A stretch of 42,242 nt of DNA. It comes from Candidatus Competibacteraceae bacterium. Lineage in GTDB: Bacteria > Bacteroidota > Bacteroidia > CAIKAF01. The DNA is taken from NCBI GenBank assembly GCA_014879445.1, contig JACSSC010000028.1:69134-111375 (forward strand), given 5' to 3'. The notes under the pieces were generated by a model, which did not search any database, was not told the DNA's origin, and was given only the letters and a program-made list of their open reading frames with translations. Position numbers and translations under genes: made by a program. Each line of letters opens with the position of its first letter. The first letter of the stretch is position 1. Of this stretch, positions 32,280-40,829 are shown one piece after another.

Positions 32280-33917
32280 ATGTTTGAACCAATGAAAACA
32301 AGGTCGAGTTGTTCCTTTTTTTTCTCCCTAACATCACAAGTTGTATATACTTGTGCATGTATTTATATATCAACCACTCAATCATTTTATGCACAGCCCT
32401 ATCGCGTTGAATGGGGGGCTTATCAGAAAATGACTACCCGCGATTTTTATGATGGCATGTTGACTTACGATTCTGCCGGATTTTTCACACTTCGAAGCCG
32501 ATATAATGCTTTAGGCGATCGCACCACTTTTATGGATTATTATCTTTTTGAAACATTAGAACGAACTACAGCTACATCGCTTGTTCATCCTGAATCGCAT
32601 AAAGACGCAGCTATTCCTTACAAACTCATTTTTGAGGACATCCTCCGAATTGGTAGCCGAACAACTATGCTTATGACAAGCTACAATCAGGATAAAGCAC
32701 AAAATATGGCTTTTGCCCAATTTATAAATAGCGATGGAAGACCTGACGGTCACATCCTTGAATTGGCAAAAATGAAAGTAGAAAGAAAATCAAATCGCGG
32801 AAAATTTCAGTTTGCATCATCTCCCGACAAAAGTTTACTCCTGATATACAATCAAGAACCCGCTGATCCGTTTACCGACGAAAAATTCGGGCTTACGGTT
32901 GTTGATACTAATTTGCAAACTGTATGGACCAACGAATATACGTTACCCTATAAATCCAAAAATTTTATTTCCGTTGATTTTCGCATTGATAACAATGGCA
33001 ACGTGTATATGCTTTCTAAAATTTATTTAAGCAAGGAGCAAGAGAAACAAAAAAAAGTCAGAGGGTCAAATTTCTATTTTATCCTTATGCGCTTTTTGCC
33101 TGAAGACGAGAAAAATCGGTTTCAGGAATATATTATACAATTGGAAGACAAGCATCCAGCAAATTGTGCCTTTCGATTTGATAAGCGGAATAACCTTCAC
33201 GTGGCCGGATACTATGCGGCCGATAAAGATCTTAGAAAAATAGAAGGCCTTTTTTTCTATACGCAACATGCCGATTCATTATCCCCGGAAAAAATTAACC
33301 TTCATACACTTCCTGATGGATTTGTTGGTGACTTTATGACTGATGCGCCCATTCAGTTTGGTGAAGAAGGAGAACCTTCAATCGAAATCACACACCTTAT
33401 TCGACTTGAGGATGGAACTCGTATCATCATTGCAGAACATCGCCTGATAACAGAAACATGCTTTACCGATTTCAGAACAGCACTCACTACGTGCAATTAT
33501 AATTATTTTTTTAACGACCTGTTTGTTGTAAAAATCAGTCCTGACGACCAAGTGCAATGGAAAATTAAAATCAATAAAAGACAGGTTACCCGAAACGATG
33601 GAGGGATGTACTCGTCTTTTACATTTGCTACTTTAAACGATAAGATTGTTTTGCTGTATAATGAGCATCCCAAAAATTTTTCATTAAAAGGCGACCGTGG
33701 ATTGTTTTTTATGAATGATCCGCAACGCTCATCAGTAGCTTTGGTTGAAATCAGCTTGCAAGGAAATGTGGCTAAATATGAGCTATTCTCCAACGAGCGG
33801 CGCAAAACCTGGTTTAGGCCACGTTTTGCTCTTCAAATCAATGATCAATCACTACTTTTTTTTACATCACGCCTTCGGAACCACGCTATTGGTCGTTTGA
33901 TAGCCACGAAACCCTAA
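32280..33917 (+). CDS. Exported protein, paralogue 1 of a tandem pair, unknown function
   Basis: The 545-residue product has a long signal peptide ending near FYAQ (about residue 39). The ATG at 32292 may be the true start. The rest is beta-rich without known catalytic motifs. It shares a series of landmarks in order with the next gene: RGKFQFASSPD, LPYKSKNF, AGYYAADKDL, YNYFFNDLFVVKIS, LLYNEHPKNFSL and a terminal FRPRF region. Spacing of these blocks suggests a beta-propeller or similar repeat fold, but I cannot prove it. Its function is unknown. Confidence 0.75.
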   Translation: MFEPMKTRSSCSFFFSLTSQVVYTCACIYISTTQSFYAQPYRVEWGAYQKMTTRDFYDGMLTYDSAGFFTLRSRYNALGDRTTFMDYYLFETLERTTATSLVHPESHKDAAIPYKLIFEDILRIGSRTTMLMTSYNQDKAQNMAFAQFINSDGRPDGHILELAKMKVERKSNRGKFQFASSPDKSLLLIYNQEPADPFTDEKFGLTVVDTNLQTVWTNEYTLPYKSKNFISVDFRIDNNGNVYMLSKIYLSKEQEKQKKVRGSNFYFILMRFLPEDEKNRFQEYIIQLEDKHPANCAFRFDKRNNLHVAGYYAADKDLRKIEGLFFYTQHADSLSPEKINLHTLPDGFVGDFMTDAPIQFGEEGEPSIEITHLIRLEDGTRIIIAEHRLITETCFTDFRTALTTCNYNYFFNDLFVVKISPDDQVQWKIKINKRQVTRNDGGMYSSFTFATLNDKIVLLYNEHPKNFSLKGDRGLFFMNDPQRSSVALVEISLQGNVAKYELFSNERRKTWFRPRFALQINDQSLLFFTSRLRNHAIGRLIATKP

Positions 33918-33972: not shown

Positions 33973-35538
33973 ATGAGAAAATTTGCTTTGATTTGGATTC
34001 TTACACTCTCTTTGAGCTATCCTACATTCTCACAATTTGCTGAAGTTGATTGGGGTACAGCCATAAATAAAGAAGCAACAGAAAGTTTTAATAACATATT
34101 GGGCGAAACTTCAGATGCTTTTTTTGTTGAAAAGCATATCAAAACAGGGTTGCTTTCTTTTGATGTTGCTATTGAAAAATATAACAAGGAAACATTTGAG
34201 AAAGAGTTTTCTACTGTTGTTTACAATTCTCAGATGTATGCTGATAAAAAAAAGACAAGAGTAATGGATGTAAATGATGTTTTGATGCTCGATAATAAAA
34301 TACTGATGTTTGTATCTGAATATGATCGAGCTTCTGACACTTATACTTCATATGCCCAAAAAATGAATTTGGATGGGTTGCTAGATGGAACATTGATTAA
34401 GTTAGACGAATACAAAACACCTGAAAAGTCACTTCGGGGCAAATACGAATTCGTTAAATCTCCGGATAATAAAAATATCGTATTATATCACAAACGTCCT
34501 TTCAAAATGTATAATGACGAAAAATTTAAGATTAAAAAATTCGACCAAGATCTGAACCTTATTTGGGAAAAAGATTTGGCATTCCCGTATAAAGATAAAG
34601 ATTTTAATCTCTTTTCTTTAAAGGTGATGAACGATGGGAACTGTTATATACTGGCTCGTATTTTTTTAGACAATGAAGAAGCACGTGAGAAGAAAAATAA
34701 CCTTGAAGCCACGTATTATTTCAAGCTACTTTCATTCTCCGATACTGATACAATTCAGGAGTCATTCTTTAAAGAAACTAATATCGAATTACCCAAAAGA
34801 TGGATTACCGATATTTCATTCACGACCATAAACGATGAAATTGTTTGTGCAGGATTTTATGCAGATAAAAAAGATATGGCAGTAACAGGTACTTTCTTTA
34901 TGCGTATTGAGAAAACTACTGGATTGATTAGGGCGCAAGATACTGAAGAATTTTCAAAAACTTTTTTAGCAGAATTTATTGGTGATAAAAAAGCTGAAAG
35001 AGGGAATGGTTTGCGTGATTTTGTACTTAGCGATATAATTCGCCGTAATGATGGTGGCCTGATGTTGGTTGGCGAACAGTTTTTCATTAAAACAGTTTGT
35101 TATACTTCCTCAGGAAATACCAGATGCAATGATTATTACTATTATAACGATATTATTGTTGTAAACATCAACAGCAAAGGTGAAATAGAATGGAATGCAA
35201 GAGTTCCCAAAAGATCAATGGATTCCCAAAATGGGTTTTATCTCTCATACGCTTTGGCAGTAAAAGGCAATCAAGTATATTTTATCTATAATGAAAATCA
35301 GAAAAACTTGACTATTACTGATCCCAGAATGTTGAAGAATGTAAACATCTCTAGCTCAGTAGCTGTTTTAGCTCATATTAACTCCAAAGGAGATGTGTCA
35401 CGCGAAGTATTATTTACTTCAAAAGAATCGCAAGCTTATCTTCGCCCCAAAACTTGCAAGCAGCTAAATCCTAATGAAATGATCATCTTGGGAGTAAAAG
35501 GAAAAAATACGCAATGGGGCAAATTGCGTTTCCCTTGA
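33973..35538 (+). CDS. Exported protein, paralogue 2 of a tandem pair, unknown function
   Basis: The 521-residue product has a signal peptide (about residues 1-20, ending TFSQ). Blocks shared with paralogue 1 are RGKYEFVKSPD, FPYKDKDF, AGFYADKKDM, YYYYNDIIVVNIN, FIYNENQKNLTI and a C-terminal SSSVAVLAHINSKGDV region. The two copies are clearly related but far diverged, so the duplication is old. No C-terminal sorting signal is evident. The stop is 2 bp from the convergent PqiA-like gene. Role unknown; cell-surface or periplasmic scaffold is a guess. Confidence 0.75.
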   Translation: MRKFALIWILTLSLSYPTFSQFAEVDWGTAINKEATESFNNILGETSDAFFVEKHIKTGLLSFDVAIEKYNKETFEKEFSTVVYNSQMYADKKKTRVMDVNDVLMLDNKILMFVSEYDRASDTYTSYAQKMNLDGLLDGTLIKLDEYKTPEKSLRGKYEFVKSPDNKNIVLYHKRPFKMYNDEKFKIKKFDQDLNLIWEKDLAFPYKDKDFNLFSLKVMNDGNCYILARIFLDNEEAREKKNNLEATYYFKLLSFSDTDTIQESFFKETNIELPKRWITDISFTTINDEIVCAGFYADKKDMAVTGTFFMRIEKTTGLIRAQDTEEFSKTFLAEFIGDKKAERGNGLRDFVLSDIIRRNDGGLMLVGEQFFIKTVCYTSSGNTRCNDYYYYNDIIVVNINSKGEIEWNARVPKRSMDSQNGFYLSYALAVKGNQVYFIYNENQKNLTITDPRMLKNVNISSSVAVLAHINSKGDVSREVLFTSKESQAYLRPKTCKQLNPNEMIILGVKGKNTQWGKLRFP

Positions 35539-36147: not shown

Positions 36148-36690
36148 TCAAGATTCTGCTACCATATGCTCTTTACCATTGGTTTGTCGACGTGACAAAT
36201 CCATGGCAAAGCCCGTGAATACCTTGTATGCCGGCGTAAATACAAATCGGTCGTTTCCTGTTCGTTCAACAATGTTGCGACGTCGCATCGTATCTATCAA
36301 CATTCTTCTCTTCTCGGCATCTTCGAGTTGTCTTGTTGCACGAACCAAATCGATATACGATGTGTTCTCAAAATAGGTATCTATCTCCTCCATCTCAAAC
36401 TCATTGTATTGCAAGCAATCCATAAAATTCTTTCCGTCTTTGTCTAGTTCATAACAGAGAATAGCGAAAAATATGCATATAGTTCTTGACAATGTTTCGT
36501 GCGTTTGGGAGGAAACCAAACAGGCATATTCCGACGATAAGTGAAAATCCATTCCAAAGGATTCGGAAAAAAAATTACGATAAAATACTTCGTTGGTTTT
36601 GATTGTATCAAATTCCTTTTCAGATGAAAGAATAAATTTTCCTCTCATCAAATCCTGTACAATTGCTTTGTGATTATTGGGATATTCCAT
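36148..36690 (-). CDS. Kite-like subunit (MukE/MksE/JetB-like) of an SMC complex
   Basis: From the ATG at 36690 the product has 180 residues; an ATG at 36708 would add six. The N-terminal region IVQDLMRGKFILSSEK, then YRNFFSESFGMDFHLSSEYA, follows the pattern of MksE/JetB proteins. The C-terminal part (RRRNIVERTGNDRFVFTPAY) looks like a winged helix with a beta hairpin. In MukBEF-type complexes this subunit dimerises on the kleisin. The gene starts 17 bp inside the upstream kleisin-like gene, so translation is coupled. The assignment rests on pattern, size and context, and is not from a search. Confidence 0.6.
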   Translation of the reverse strand: MEYPNNHKAIVQDLMRGKFILSSEKEFDTIKTNEVFYRNFFSESFGMDFHLSSEYACLVSSQTHETLSRTICIFFAILCYELDKDGKNFMDCLQYNEFEMEEIDTYFENTSYIDLVRATRQLEDAEKRRMLIDTMRRRNIVERTGNDRFVFTPAYKVFTGFAMDLSRRQTNGKEHMVAES

Positions 36691-37867
36691 ATGATTCAAT
36701 TTTAACATTTGGTACTGTATAACTTGCTTGTGATGTTTCTATAGTGCTGGTTTTTCCAGTAAATTCAATTTGTAAATTTTCTTCAAAAAGCAAACCGGCC
36801 AGCGTAAACAATTTATCGGTTTGTGTAATTCCAAATTCAGCATTAATTTCAGTAGCAGCCCATTCAAAAAAGTTCTCGATTGGCAATTGGGAGAGTAACT
36901 TATCACGATACATATTTTTATGATAAATCCACTTCTCTACATCCTGCTCATCGTCTTCTATAATCATCTCATCAGACGTTTCGAATTGTTCGAAAAACTC
37001 TTTGGTCTGGTAATACATGTCTGATGCATATACCTGATAGGTTTGCTCTTTTATCATAGTCGGCGTTTCCATGCGAAATGGATTTTTCAGAAAATGTATC
37101 CATCCCGATAAAATCGCCGATTCAGTACGAATACGCTCAATAAGTGGCAATAGCTCGTTTGTGAGTGTTCGTGAATGTTTGATGAGGTTGTTATGCACTT
37201 CCATCAAAAAAACATATAACTTTTCAAACTGACGGCGTATGCCCTCATCTGCGAAATTCAATCGATAACGATTAGCAAATTCTGAAATTTCGGATAGGGT
37301 AAAAGCTACTGAGGATGGATTATTTACATCCAAAATTCGATTTAATGGTACGATGTAATAATCAATCCAAAATGTTGCTTTTTGTAACTTTGAGCGATAA
37401 TCCATTTTCTCTGCATTGGCCTTCAGTTCACGCGATTCGGTCAATAATCTGAATGTGTTTCTTTCAACATGACTAATACACTCTCCGGCCTGTGACATAA
37501 TTTCCATGATACGTGCTTCCAATATATCTCGGTCTAAGGATAATCCCTGAATGATTTGACGAAACAAATCACCAAAAACTTGGTTGTACTTATCTATCGT
37601 CTCTGGTAATACCGGTCTGAAAGTTTGATACAAATACTGTAATAAATCAAAAAACTCTTTTCTGAACACATATTCTTCTCCTGACAGACGCAGAATTTTA
37701 TAATCAAAAAATCGCTGACCCACATCTGATTTATGCCGGTCTATGACATCCAGAAATACATGATGTGGAATGGACTGATTCGCTATCTGATAATCATAAA
37801 GGTCTTTCACCGCATCAAAATGATGCGTGAAAAATCGCAATATGCTGACAGGTTCATTGTGTTGCAT
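36674..37867 (-). CDS. Kleisin-like subunit (MukF/MksF/JetA-like) of an SMC complex
   Basis: The 397-residue cytosolic protein begins with ILRFFTHHFDAVKDLYDYQI, then DVIDRHKSD and KILRLSGEEYVFRKEF, which could be an N-terminal winged helix. Long helical segments follow (about residues 90-270), then an acidic stretch with EDDEQDVEKW near residue 310 and a small C-terminal domain. This order (winged helix, helical middle, acidic linker, C-terminal domain) is what MukF/MksF/JetA kleisins show. It starts 12 bp after the SMC-like stop and overlaps the kite-like gene. I name it by architecture and context. Confidence 0.6.
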   Translation of the reverse strand: MQHNEPVSILRFFTHHFDAVKDLYDYQIANQSIPHHVFLDVIDRHKSDVGQRFFDYKILRLSGEEYVFRKEFFDLLQYLYQTFRPVLPETIDKYNQVFGDLFRQIIQGLSLDRDILEARIMEIMSQAGECISHVERNTFRLLTESRELKANAEKMDYRSKLQKATFWIDYYIVPLNRILDVNNPSSVAFTLSEISEFANRYRLNFADEGIRRQFEKLYVFLMEVHNNLIKHSRTLTNELLPLIERIRTESAILSGWIHFLKNPFRMETPTMIKEQTYQVYASDMYYQTKEFFEQFETSDEMIIEDDEQDVEKWIYHKNMYRDKLLSQLPIENFFEWAATEINAEFGITQTDKLFTLAGLLFEENLQIEFTGKTSTIETSQASYTVPNVKIESYGISQ

Positions 37868-37879
37868 TTGAATAAGATA

Positions 37880-40549
37880 TTAAGATTGAGAAAAAGATTC
37901 TGCCGGTTTTTCATATGACGCTCTGATGGCATGTCTTTCACCTACATTTATTTTTCCCGCCTTTCGTATGATAAAATAATATTTATCAAATCCGTCGAAT
38001 GCCTGAGGCGCAGCAAATATGGGGATGAAATGATGTTCGCGACAAAACTTCACCAACTCCGGCCTGTTTTGTTCATCTATCGTACCAATTTCATCAATAA
38101 ACAAAGCAATTCTGTTCATTGAATCACTCAATGCTAATCGGTTGATGATGGCCATAATGATAACCAATCGGATCATCCTGTCTGTTCCATCTGATTCTAC
38201 TTGGTTTTTTAAATCTACTTTCTTGCTCTCTCCGTGTATGCTCAGATGCAACTCTATATCAAACAACTCATCAAAATGTATTCGCTTACCACTATCAAGA
38301 TATTGGTTCAATACCTGCAAATTTTCACTTTGATCAAAATCAAACATCATTTGACCGGTAAAATCTTGTATCGCGCTAATTTTTCTAATCTCGCTAATTA
38401 CCTTTGGATTATCAACAATCTCAATTCGTAAATCTTCAATATTTGAAATACGTATTCGAGACAACTTCTGATTGAATTTGGATGTTATAAACTCTTTAAA
38501 TTCTTGATATCGTCTGAACAATGTAAATGCGGGGTTTGCAAATTGAGTCGAAATGCTTTGCAGCAAACTCTCTATGCTTTTTTCTTTGTCGGAAATGCAT
38601 GCAATTTCTTCATCCACATAGCGGATAAACTCATCCTCATCTGATACAGAGTATTGTATCTTGTATCGGAGCAAATCAAATTTGCTATCCTTGCCCGCTT
38701 TCAATATCTCACGATCTTTGTAGTGCAACTGTATTTTATCATAAATCTGTTCTAATCCTTCGCTGGTGTGAAAAGGCATCGGTTCAAGTCCGATATTTTC
38801 CAATTCCGTTTTCTGATGACGTAACAATTCACGACGGTCATCCAGTTTCATCCTCGTTTCCAATTCTATTTGTATCACGGCCTGCTTTTCTTTAATCTCT
38901 TCCAGCAGCTGCATCAATTCATTTTCTAGTGTTTGCTTATCGCTGCGCATTACTCCCAGTGAAAATTTTTGTTCATCTATTCGTCTTACCAAATCCGGCT
39001 TGGATGCAAGTTCAGCCATCTGTGTTCGCAAAATTGAAATCTCATCCATGATTTGTTGCAGTGCGATTTTCTCGTTCTGTAAATTTTCTAATGTTTTTTG
39101 CAGCAAACTATATTCCTGCTCTTCATTTTGCATTTGCTCCAAAGTGGCACGTAATTCATCCACAGAAGGCAATTCACGTAAAACAAGATGTTCAGGTAAC
39201 GTAATTTCACCATCAAACAAGGGCATAGATTGCCCCGTTTTTTTTACCTTTTTCAAAATCAAATCCGACGACATGCTACTCAATTCCTCTGATAATAAAG
39301 TATAAAGCAATTGTCGCACTTCCTGTTTGTCTGATAATGAATGAATGAGTTGTGCATCATAATTGGCAATGCGAGCCGATAATTTCTCAATGGATTTGCG
39401 AAGTGATACTAATTTCTGTTCAATACGATCCAGCGAAAAGCGTCCTGATTCTATTCGTGTAATCTGCAATTCCAATTGCTTCCTCTTTTTATCCAGATTG
39501 TGTAGTGACTCTTGCAAAAACTCCAAGTTTCCATAGGCCTCTATCTGAACTAGCTTCTTTTGCATATCCAGCAAATCCGACTCGGCCATTTGCAATAGTT
39601 GTAATTTCGCACCAATTTGCTGATTCAAGTGCTGTTCGCGTGGCTTTAGCACGATATCCAATTCATTCTGCTGATGAGATAAATCATTGATTTTTTCAAT
39701 AATTCTTGAATCTAAATCAGATATCGTGCTTTCGTATGATTGATTAAAAGCAAAAATATACTCCGACACGATACGTGTTTTGGCTTTGTATTGCTGCACA
39801 GTTTCACGAAATACTTCAAAATCCTTTTGTATCGAACGTATCGCTTTTATTCCATCGTTGATGCGCAATAAATCACTAATGTCTTTCTTGTTTTTTTGAG
39901 AAAAATTAAGGGTTTCGTGTTCGCGATTATCTGCAATAATCAGGGCATCCTTTAGCGTTTTGTTGTTTATCAGTTTTGAGTTTATCAAATATCTGTACAC
40001 TTTCGAAAAATTGTTGCTTATACCATCCGTCTTCACACTTTCATCCAACCATACAACCGCATCATTTTGTTTTCCTCTTCTATATACTGCATGCAACACA
40101 TCGGCTTTATTATTAAATGGGCTGTAAGCAATTTGGGCAGCCGATAATCCAGCTTTTACCTCATCAAACTTCAGCAACCTGGCGCTTCCGCCATCCTGCG
40201 AAAAAAACATCGAATCCGAATATGGCGCATCAATTTCATAATATTCCAACTCGCCATCAGCATCACGCTTCAGCATGATGCAGTATGAACGTTTTTTTCC
40301 GATTTCAAATACAATATAACTTTGATTTGGATTCGGAAAATAGTGATGTATCGTTTCTTTATCGCCCTTGCGGTTTCCGCTGAAACTCATTTTACTGCCA
40401 TCTATTACAAACAAAAAATTAAGGGCATATATCAGGGTGCTTTTTCCTACATTGTTTGGCCCTACCAATTGCAATGAATCAATATCATCAAAACTGATTT
40501 CCGCTTTTCCATATACCTTCGAGTTCAGGATAATTAATTTATTTAACAT
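37880..40549 (-). CDS. SMC/RecF-type ATPase (MukB/MksB/JetC-like)
   Basis: The 889-residue protein has an N-terminal Walker A GPNNVGKST (30-38) and a Gln-rich loop. The C-terminal half of the ABC head has a signature-like VESDGTDRMIRLV (about 784-796) and Walker B ALFIDEIGTID (815-825) with the catalytic Glu. Between about residues 240 and 690 it is mostly heptad-rich coiled coil, broken near residues 430-460 by QSMPLFDGEITLPEHLVL, a possible hinge-like knob. The head-coil-hinge-coil-head plan defines SMC proteins, but the arms are short, as in MksB/JetC. The signature lacks the usual SGGQ form. It heads a three-gene operon. Confidence 0.75.
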   Translation of the reverse strand: MLNKLIILNSKVYGKAEISFDDIDSLQLVGPNNVGKSTLIYALNFLFVIDGSKMSFSGNRKGDKETIHHYFPNPNQSYIVFEIGKKRSYCIMLKRDADGELEYYEIDAPYSDSMFFSQDGGSARLLKFDEVKAGLSAAQIAYSPFNNKADVLHAVYRRGKQNDAVVWLDESVKTDGISNNFSKVYRYLINSKLINNKTLKDALIIADNREHETLNFSQKNKKDISDLLRINDGIKAIRSIQKDFEVFRETVQQYKAKTRIVSEYIFAFNQSYESTISDLDSRIIEKINDLSHQQNELDIVLKPREQHLNQQIGAKLQLLQMAESDLLDMQKKLVQIEAYGNLEFLQESLHNLDKKRKQLELQITRIESGRFSLDRIEQKLVSLRKSIEKLSARIANYDAQLIHSLSDKQEVRQLLYTLLSEELSSMSSDLILKKVKKTGQSMPLFDGEITLPEHLVLRELPSVDELRATLEQMQNEEQEYSLLQKTLENLQNEKIALQQIMDEISILRTQMAELASKPDLVRRIDEQKFSLGVMRSDKQTLENELMQLLEEIKEKQAVIQIELETRMKLDDRRELLRHQKTELENIGLEPMPFHTSEGLEQIYDKIQLHYKDREILKAGKDSKFDLLRYKIQYSVSDEDEFIRYVDEEIACISDKEKSIESLLQSISTQFANPAFTLFRRYQEFKEFITSKFNQKLSRIRISNIEDLRIEIVDNPKVISEIRKISAIQDFTGQMMFDFDQSENLQVLNQYLDSGKRIHFDELFDIELHLSIHGESKKVDLKNQVESDGTDRMIRLVIIMAIINRLALSDSMNRIALFIDEIGTIDEQNRPELVKFCREHHFIPIFAAPQAFDGFDKYYFIIRKAGKINVGERHAIRASYEKPAESFSQS

Positions 40550-40829
40550 CTTCTGTTACTTTTATATTTTATGCTTACAAAGGTACGTCACTGCCCTGCT
40601 TTCATCATGATGCATAAACCCCATTGCCTCATTTTTTATTCACAATTTATTCACCTCAACAGCCAATTTGGCAGTCATGTGATTTTCAAAGGCCTTACTT
40701 CGTTTCCATGCTCAACAATCACCATTTCAGCATTTTATCTAATTCGTTAATTCTTTAGCAGCATATACTTAACAATGTCACTCTGCCATGCATGATTTTT
40801 GATGGCTATTTCTCAATAATCATATCATC
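40550..40829. other. 280-bp divergent intergenic region
   Basis: This gap separates the SMC-like operon from the rhomboid gene. Apart from the -7 box on the minus strand, I see only a near-match GATTTTTG at 40794-40801 on the plus strand. There is no open reading frame of note, no hairpin with a T tract and no RNA gene. Confidence 0.6.
40578..40585 (-). promoter_or_regulatory. -7 box of the SMC-like operon
   Basis: On the minus strand TACCTTTG fully matches TAnnTTTG, 28 nt before the ATG at 40549. I see no TTG at the -33 distance. Confidence 0.5.

Follow-up and report, generated by a model that had tools for sequence, protein, structure and literature searches.

Genes and predicted folds at the locus

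We analyzed a 42,242-nucleotide stretch of DNA, hereafter the window, and focused on three closely packed minus-strand genes for a predicted SMC-type ATPase, a predicted kleisin and an MksE-type kite:

37880..40549, minus strand: SMC-type ATPase (MksB/MukB-like), 889 aa, first gene of the operon; from the reading frame and fold model
37868..37879, minus strand: ATPase–kleisin junction, 12 bp; site of a JetD-like gene in 15 relatives
36674..37867, minus strand: kleisin (MksF/MukF-like), 397 aa; from the reading frame, AlphaFold2 model and Foldseek match to MukF
36148..36690, minus strand: kite (MksE-like), 180 aa; from Pfam MksE, with the start set by homologues

The 12-bp gap between ATPase and kleisin genes and the 17-bp overlap between kleisin and kite genes indicate a single operon in the order ATPase–kleisin–kite. 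The kite reading frame reaches 36708 (186 aa), but in alignment the homologues begin at the internal ATG at 36690, which gives the 180-aa protein; at the other end, a first-pass annotation made from the sequence alone had drawn its limit at 40585, 36 bp past the ATPase start at 40549. A search by the kite alone recovered the same genes in the same order at 33 Bacteroidota loci, placing the three-gene set far above chance level. The operon is adjoined by genes for a PqiA-like membrane protein and a rhomboid protease (Pfam), with enolase, pterin synthase, polyprenyl synthase and an NfeD protein farther out, and none of ten neighboring proteins matched a defense model. Elsewhere in the window, two adjacent genes (32280-33917 and 33973-35538) encode secreted-looking proteins of 545 and 521 aa that appear by eye to be paralogues and have no Pfam match.

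Sequence profiles placed only one of the three proteins. The kite matches Pfam MksE well above the curated threshold (E=7e-20, 72.5 bits; cut-off 27) and qualifies on this basis as a MukE/MksE-type kite. The ATPase has weak SMC_N/AAA_29 matches below the Pfam cut-off, and sequence searches gave nothing for the kleisin. PADLOC Jet models gave marginal scores on the operon (JetC, E=0.0036; JetB2, E=7e-4) with no match to JetA, and the operon does not qualify as Wadjet by the JetA, JetB and JetC sequence models. Single-sequence and profile searches of PDB sequences found no relative of the kleisin, the kite or the JetD-like protein described below and for the ATPase returned no more than noise from coiled coils and P-loops; MukB and MukF showed no detectable sequence match to the ATPase or kleisin, and an NCBIfam search of the operon proteins yielded nothing useful. 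Because sequence searches failed to place the ATPase and kleisin, their identification required fold comparison.

We built AlphaFold2 models from alignments of 42 relatives. The ATPase model (pLDDT 82.7) runs from a head through a long coiled-coil arm to a small middle domain of lower confidence (pLDDT 66-73) and back along a return arm to the head, a prediction that meets the definition of an SMC-type protein by its head, antiparallel coiled coil and hinge-like middle. Foldseek comparison with the PDB ranked MukB chains best (E=5e-21), above Rad50, JetC and Smc5/6, and VIA-align scored MukB heads at Z 24.0 (rmsd 4.0, 386 residues), whereas JetC reached 19.5 and the heads of Rad50 and Smc ~20. 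In the kleisin model (pLDDT 77), winged helices stand at the N- and C-terminal ends, with neck helices and a linker between them, and by these two winged helices the protein is predicted to satisfy the kleisin definition. Its resemblance to MukF is weak: MukF supplies the top three Foldseek matches among 350,542 chains at only E=0.02, alignment to full-length MukF reaches Z 12.5 over 342 residues but with an rmsd of 28 Å, and helical-bundle noise is high in this comparison.

The ATP-binding motifs of the ATPase are intact, as defined by the alignment of relatives:

40436..40465, minus strand: Walker A VGPNNVGKST, residues 29-38; N32, N33, G35, K36 and S37 invariant in 42 relatives
38180..38197, minus strand: ABC signature-like motif ESDGTD, residues 785-790; S786, G788 and T789 invariant in 42 relatives
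38075..38110, minus strand: Walker B region IALFIDEIGTID, residues 814-825; D819 and E820 invariant in 42 relatives

Together, the MukB-like ATPase fold, the MukF-like kleisin, the MksE kite and the conserved motifs identify a short-armed SMC complex of the Muk/Mks type. The SMC–kleisin–kite identity proposed in the first-pass annotation therefore held, with the reservation that the kleisin match is weak, and neither of the outcomes it had named as refuting was observed: profile searches linked the 180-aa and 397-aa proteins to no unrelated family, and the ATPase model includes an SMC-type head and a hinge-like middle.

Nuclease gain and loss among relatives

The first-pass annotation had also reported that JetD, the Wadjet nuclease, is missing from the 42-kb window, and this claim held and extends to the whole genome. 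Profile searches found JetD_C neither in the window nor anywhere in its genome, and a JetD-like profile likewise returned nothing in this genome while strongly detecting the four-gene genomes of the same sample as positive controls. A JetD-like gene elsewhere in the genome is rejected on these results, which disfavor the earlier suggestion of a Wadjet with its nuclease encoded at a distance; the definition of Wadjet by a JetD in the operon or genome is not met. Among other three-gene genomes in the sample there is likewise no JetD-like gene in trans, with the exception of one (G229) that holds a three-gene operon plus separate complete nuclease-bearing systems.

The 33 relatives found by the kite fall into two layouts, one with three genes and one with a fourth gene of ~264 aa between ATPase and kleisin. 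The ~264-aa protein has an invariant Toprim pattern, E-N ... D-Y-D-x-x-G, and one member exceeds the curated Pfam cut-off for JetD_C (26.5 bits, E=4.6e-6) and others have weak JetD_C or DUF7281 matches. No DUF3322 match was found in this JetD-like protein, whereas a classical JetD from the same class (L089) matches both JetD_C and DUF3322.

We compared 89 distinct complete operons, 74 with three genes and 15 with four, and in every four-gene operon the JetD-like Toprim gene occupies the ATPase–kleisin interval. Three- and four-gene operons are interleaved on a concatenated core-protein tree, with at least six changes of nuclease state on well-supported branches. In one sister pair at a single parAB–aroC locus, a four-gene operon (L095) and a three-gene operon (L134) are 96%, 94% and 93% identical in ATPase, kleisin and kite and share their flanking genes, and the ATPase–kleisin junction differs by the nuclease gene. 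A second three-gene operon (L122) retains a broken JetD-like C-terminus inside a 430-bp junction, 58% identical over 52 residues (E=6e-17) to the nuclease encoded by L120, its sister with four genes, and this remnant proves one nuclease loss. Which way the other changes went is unresolved, since the tree of JetD-like proteins is poorly resolved and the nucleases of one family (f11) are far more divergent than their cores, just 37-38% identical compared with 56-78%; given this divergence, re-acquisition of the nuclease remains possible. That the nuclease comes and goes within the family, leaving a broken remnant at one locus, was beyond the reach of the first-pass annotation.

The nuclease-bearing form of Flavobacteriaceae is almost identical across genera in unrelated gene contexts, with related copies in Cyclobacteriaceae and Hymenobacteraceae, a distribution that fits a mobile system. 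Searches of phages and viral contigs found no copies of the complex, and plasmids gave five partial matches only, each below 45% identity; an origin of the complex on mobile elements is unsupported. One window-type operon (L162, in genome G441) is disrupted: its ATPase gene is cut after ~230 aa, and the fragment lies 4.5 kb from the kleisin gene with two foreign reading frames (318 and 1,149 aa) between them.

Distribution, selection and other condensins

The operon family is widespread in Bacteroidota and patchy at finer scale. A window-type ATPase occurs in 51 of 395 genomes of the class, a count that rules out universal presence, and the window's own family carries the operon in 4 of 16 genomes. 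Retention is far higher in two other families. In f11, 47 of 58 genomes and 12 of 14 genera carry the ATPase, single-copy barring pieces at contig ends, and of the 39 complete operons fetched 36 lack the nuclease; in f21, 25 of 26 good genomes have MksE, and the nuclease is missing from 25 of the 26 complete operons fetched. Nuclease-free clades comprise nearly all of f21, family f4 and the window's genus. High-quality f11 genomes without the operon do exist (for example G387 and G419), which together with the 4/16 count in the window's family indicates that the operon is not essential there, and genomes lacking it occur within the same genus as carriers.

Families f4 and f21, and part of f11, keep the operon in a conserved gene neighborhood. 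In one f11 genus (g90) the operon follows parA-parB-dapB-lepB and precedes aroC and the topoisomerase I gene (topA), the flanking genes having been named by eye from conserved N-terminal sequence without a profile search. Close three-gene pairs have dN/dS values of 0.01-0.07 for all three genes, a range that includes the pair L097/L122 from the nuclease-losing lineage, demonstrating that nuclease-free operons of relatives are under strong purifying selection.

Profile searches of the window's genome, which is 2.69 Mb and rated 100% complete, returned no Smc, ScpA or ScpB, the top SMC_N matches being RecF, RecN and ABC transporters, and these searches show that the definition of Smc–ScpAB by a canonical Smc with ScpA and ScpB partners is not met. 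Across the class, ScpA occurs in 81 of 395 genomes and coincides with the window-type ATPase in one genome only (G224), compared with 10.5 expected (Fisher p=1e-4, a value inflated by shared ancestry). The operon of that genome is of the nuclease-bearing form, and in the 395-genome sample no nuclease-free operon was found in a ScpA-positive genome. Roughly two thirds of the 395 genomes have neither ScpA nor a window-type ATPase, and judged by profile searches many members of the class live without a recognizable SMC complex. With most of the class lacking both complexes, absence of Smc alone is no proof of replacement. Earlier Hi-C work described two Bacteroidetes species without known condensin homologues and termed their SMC complexes unidentified (PMC10197239); our Bacteroides control genome had no MksE match, and the window's family is not shown in Bacteroides.

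Proposed function and alternatives

The complex shares features with four known SMC systems and differs from each. Like MukBEF, it combines SMC ATPase, kleisin and kite in one operon with no nuclease and no Smc–ScpAB alongside, and its ATPase head and kleisin folds are nearest to MukB and MukF; it differs from MukBEF in its gene order, its occurrence in Bacteroidota, the JetD-like nuclease of some members and the much shorter arms of its 889-aa ATPase. MukB itself is ~1,490 aa. MksBEF, as in Pseudomonas aeruginosa, is likewise a nuclease-free Muk-like complex with a Pfam MksE kite. P. aeruginosa has MksBEF besides Smc, whereas the window's genome has no Smc and its family has its own gene order. 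The unusual order noted in the first-pass annotation held: known MksBEF operons run mksF-mksE-mksB (PMC10123090), and the window and all complete relatives depart from this kleisin–kite–ATPase arrangement with ATPase–kleisin–kite. Wadjet (JetABCD, or MksBEFG) has the same core parts, and the Toprim protein of four-gene relatives matches JetD_C above the curated threshold in one member, but the window lacks JetD and the relatives' JetD-like gene is ~264 aa, second in the operon and without DUF3322. The SMC–kleisin–kite layout is also that of Smc–ScpAB, from which the complex differs in having no Smc, ScpA or ScpB signature.

We propose, with a probability of roughly 0.6, that the operon encodes a Muk/Mks-type loop extruder acting on the host chromosome and evolutionarily interchangeable with a Wadjet-like, nuclease-bearing form. 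The kleisin would connect the heads of an ATPase dimer, a kite dimer would regulate them, and the complex would spend ATP on DNA loading and loop extrusion, activities inferred by analogy with MukBEF and Wadjet. Its target would be the host's own chromosome, where it would act as the sole recognizable condensin of the genome. Long retention without a nuclease, in genomes without Smc–ScpAB, makes folding of the host chromosome the most likely role, an inference from indirect evidence only and without any experiment on chromosome folding. The same core joined to the compact JetD-like Toprim nuclease is presumed to form a Wadjet-like anti-plasmid machine, a role for the four-gene form that is likewise inferred. 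Wadjet cutting is thought to be triggered when two motors meet after full extrusion of a small circle (PMC10586767), and a motor without JetD would only fold DNA. In the proposed history, several losses, and perhaps regains, of the nuclease gene would have taken place at the ATPase–kleisin junction, and the core would be preserved for an independent function. Of the options raised in the first-pass annotation, a chromosome condensin is favored by the lack of Smc, ScpA and ScpB from the genome, and a distinct branch by the existence of a separate family that has its own gene order and its own optional compact JetD.

The strongest competitor is a nuclease-less defense system, in which small circles would be detected by total extrusion and then silenced, sequestered or passed to an unrelated host nuclease. 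This remains possible: the relatives nearest to it in architecture encode a JetD-like nuclease within the operon, and the patchiness in the window's family (4/16) and the operon-free genomes within the same genus fit a defense gene. Against it, the genome has no JetD_C or JetD-like gene, the ten tested neighbors include no defense genes, no close plasmid or phage copies were found, and the near-universal, single-copy, syntenic and constrained state of the operon in f11 and f21 is atypical for a defense gene. The complex could also be an accessory second condensin with only a minor or conditional part in chromosome organization, as has been suggested for MksBEF of Pseudomonas. This reading would account for loss from some high-quality genomes and agrees with the many relatives that have no recognizable SMC complex, but is unlikely given that no primary condensin was detected alongside it in the genome.

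We consider it very unlikely that the operon is a frozen Wadjet-like system, whose core is kept merely as a landing platform for a swappable nuclease cassette that is lost to avoid self-damage and regained by transfer. The six or more changes of nuclease state, the same-locus sisters L095 and L134 with and without nuclease, and the f11 identities (JetD-like proteins 37-38%, cores 56-78%), which allow re-acquisition, speak for such a cycle; a mere platform, however, would be expected to decay, and the large nuclease-free clades are strongly constrained. It is all but excluded that the ATPase is an AriA-, RecF- or Rad50-like coiled-coil protein unrelated to SMC complexes whose two neighbors adjoin it by chance. 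In favor of that reading, the ATPase's Pfam matches fall under the cut-off and its best PADLOC match is AriA (E=2.5e-7), with the best stretch at the Walker A region; against it stand MukB as the best fold, ahead of Rad50, the MukF-like kleisin model with the MksE kite, and linkage of the three genes in 89 operons. PARIS (AriA–AriB) was considered as a candidate and rejected, the AriA match being limited to the P-loop region and AriB being absent from the operon and the ten neighbors.

The chromosome-organizer reading admits a bolder form: a Bacteroidota SMC complex that interconverts between anti-plasmid nuclease machine and chromosome organizer as a single gene is lost or gained at a fixed place on the chromosome (between parAB and topA in one genus), with sister species displaying both states, and that is the main condensin of nuclease-free lineages without Smc–ScpAB. 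As a joint claim this could as readily prove wrong as right. If true, it would offer a live example of the proposed Wadjet-to-MukBEF transition. Reviews have speculated that MukBEF and MksBEF arose from Wadjet through loss of JetD (PMC10586767), with no nuclease remnants described in the relevant passages of that article, and we found no description of the window's family in the open-access literature searched, subscription papers being outside our scope. The L122 remnant and the near-identical sister operons make the Wadjet-to-Muk/Mks idea testable in natural near-isogenic pairs, and the complex bears on how chromosomes are organized in Bacteroidota without Smc–ScpAB, the question raised by Hi-C work (PMC10197239).

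Other SMC operons were seen among the loci. A second Mks-type family of the class (L082-L088; for example L084:6808-11283 and L088:8812-14542) has the canonical kleisin–kite–ATPase order and an ATPase of 1,050-1,200 aa, and several members without a JetD neighbor represent another nuclease-free SMC complex of Bacteroidota. In three further canonical-order Mks operons (L166, L167 and L079), the gene for a ~1,230-aa ATPase precedes one for a DUF7281/JetD-like Toprim protein of 284-290 aa, and from sequence alone these operons are inferred to be another compact-nuclease Wadjet-like type; L166 and L167 share upstream genes for proteins of 303 and 299 aa. In family f9 (L114:7621-12278 and L115:7636-11005), where no adjacent nuclease was seen, a ~909-aa ATPase related to that of the window lies downstream of the kite in canonical order, a possible bridge between the two gene orders.
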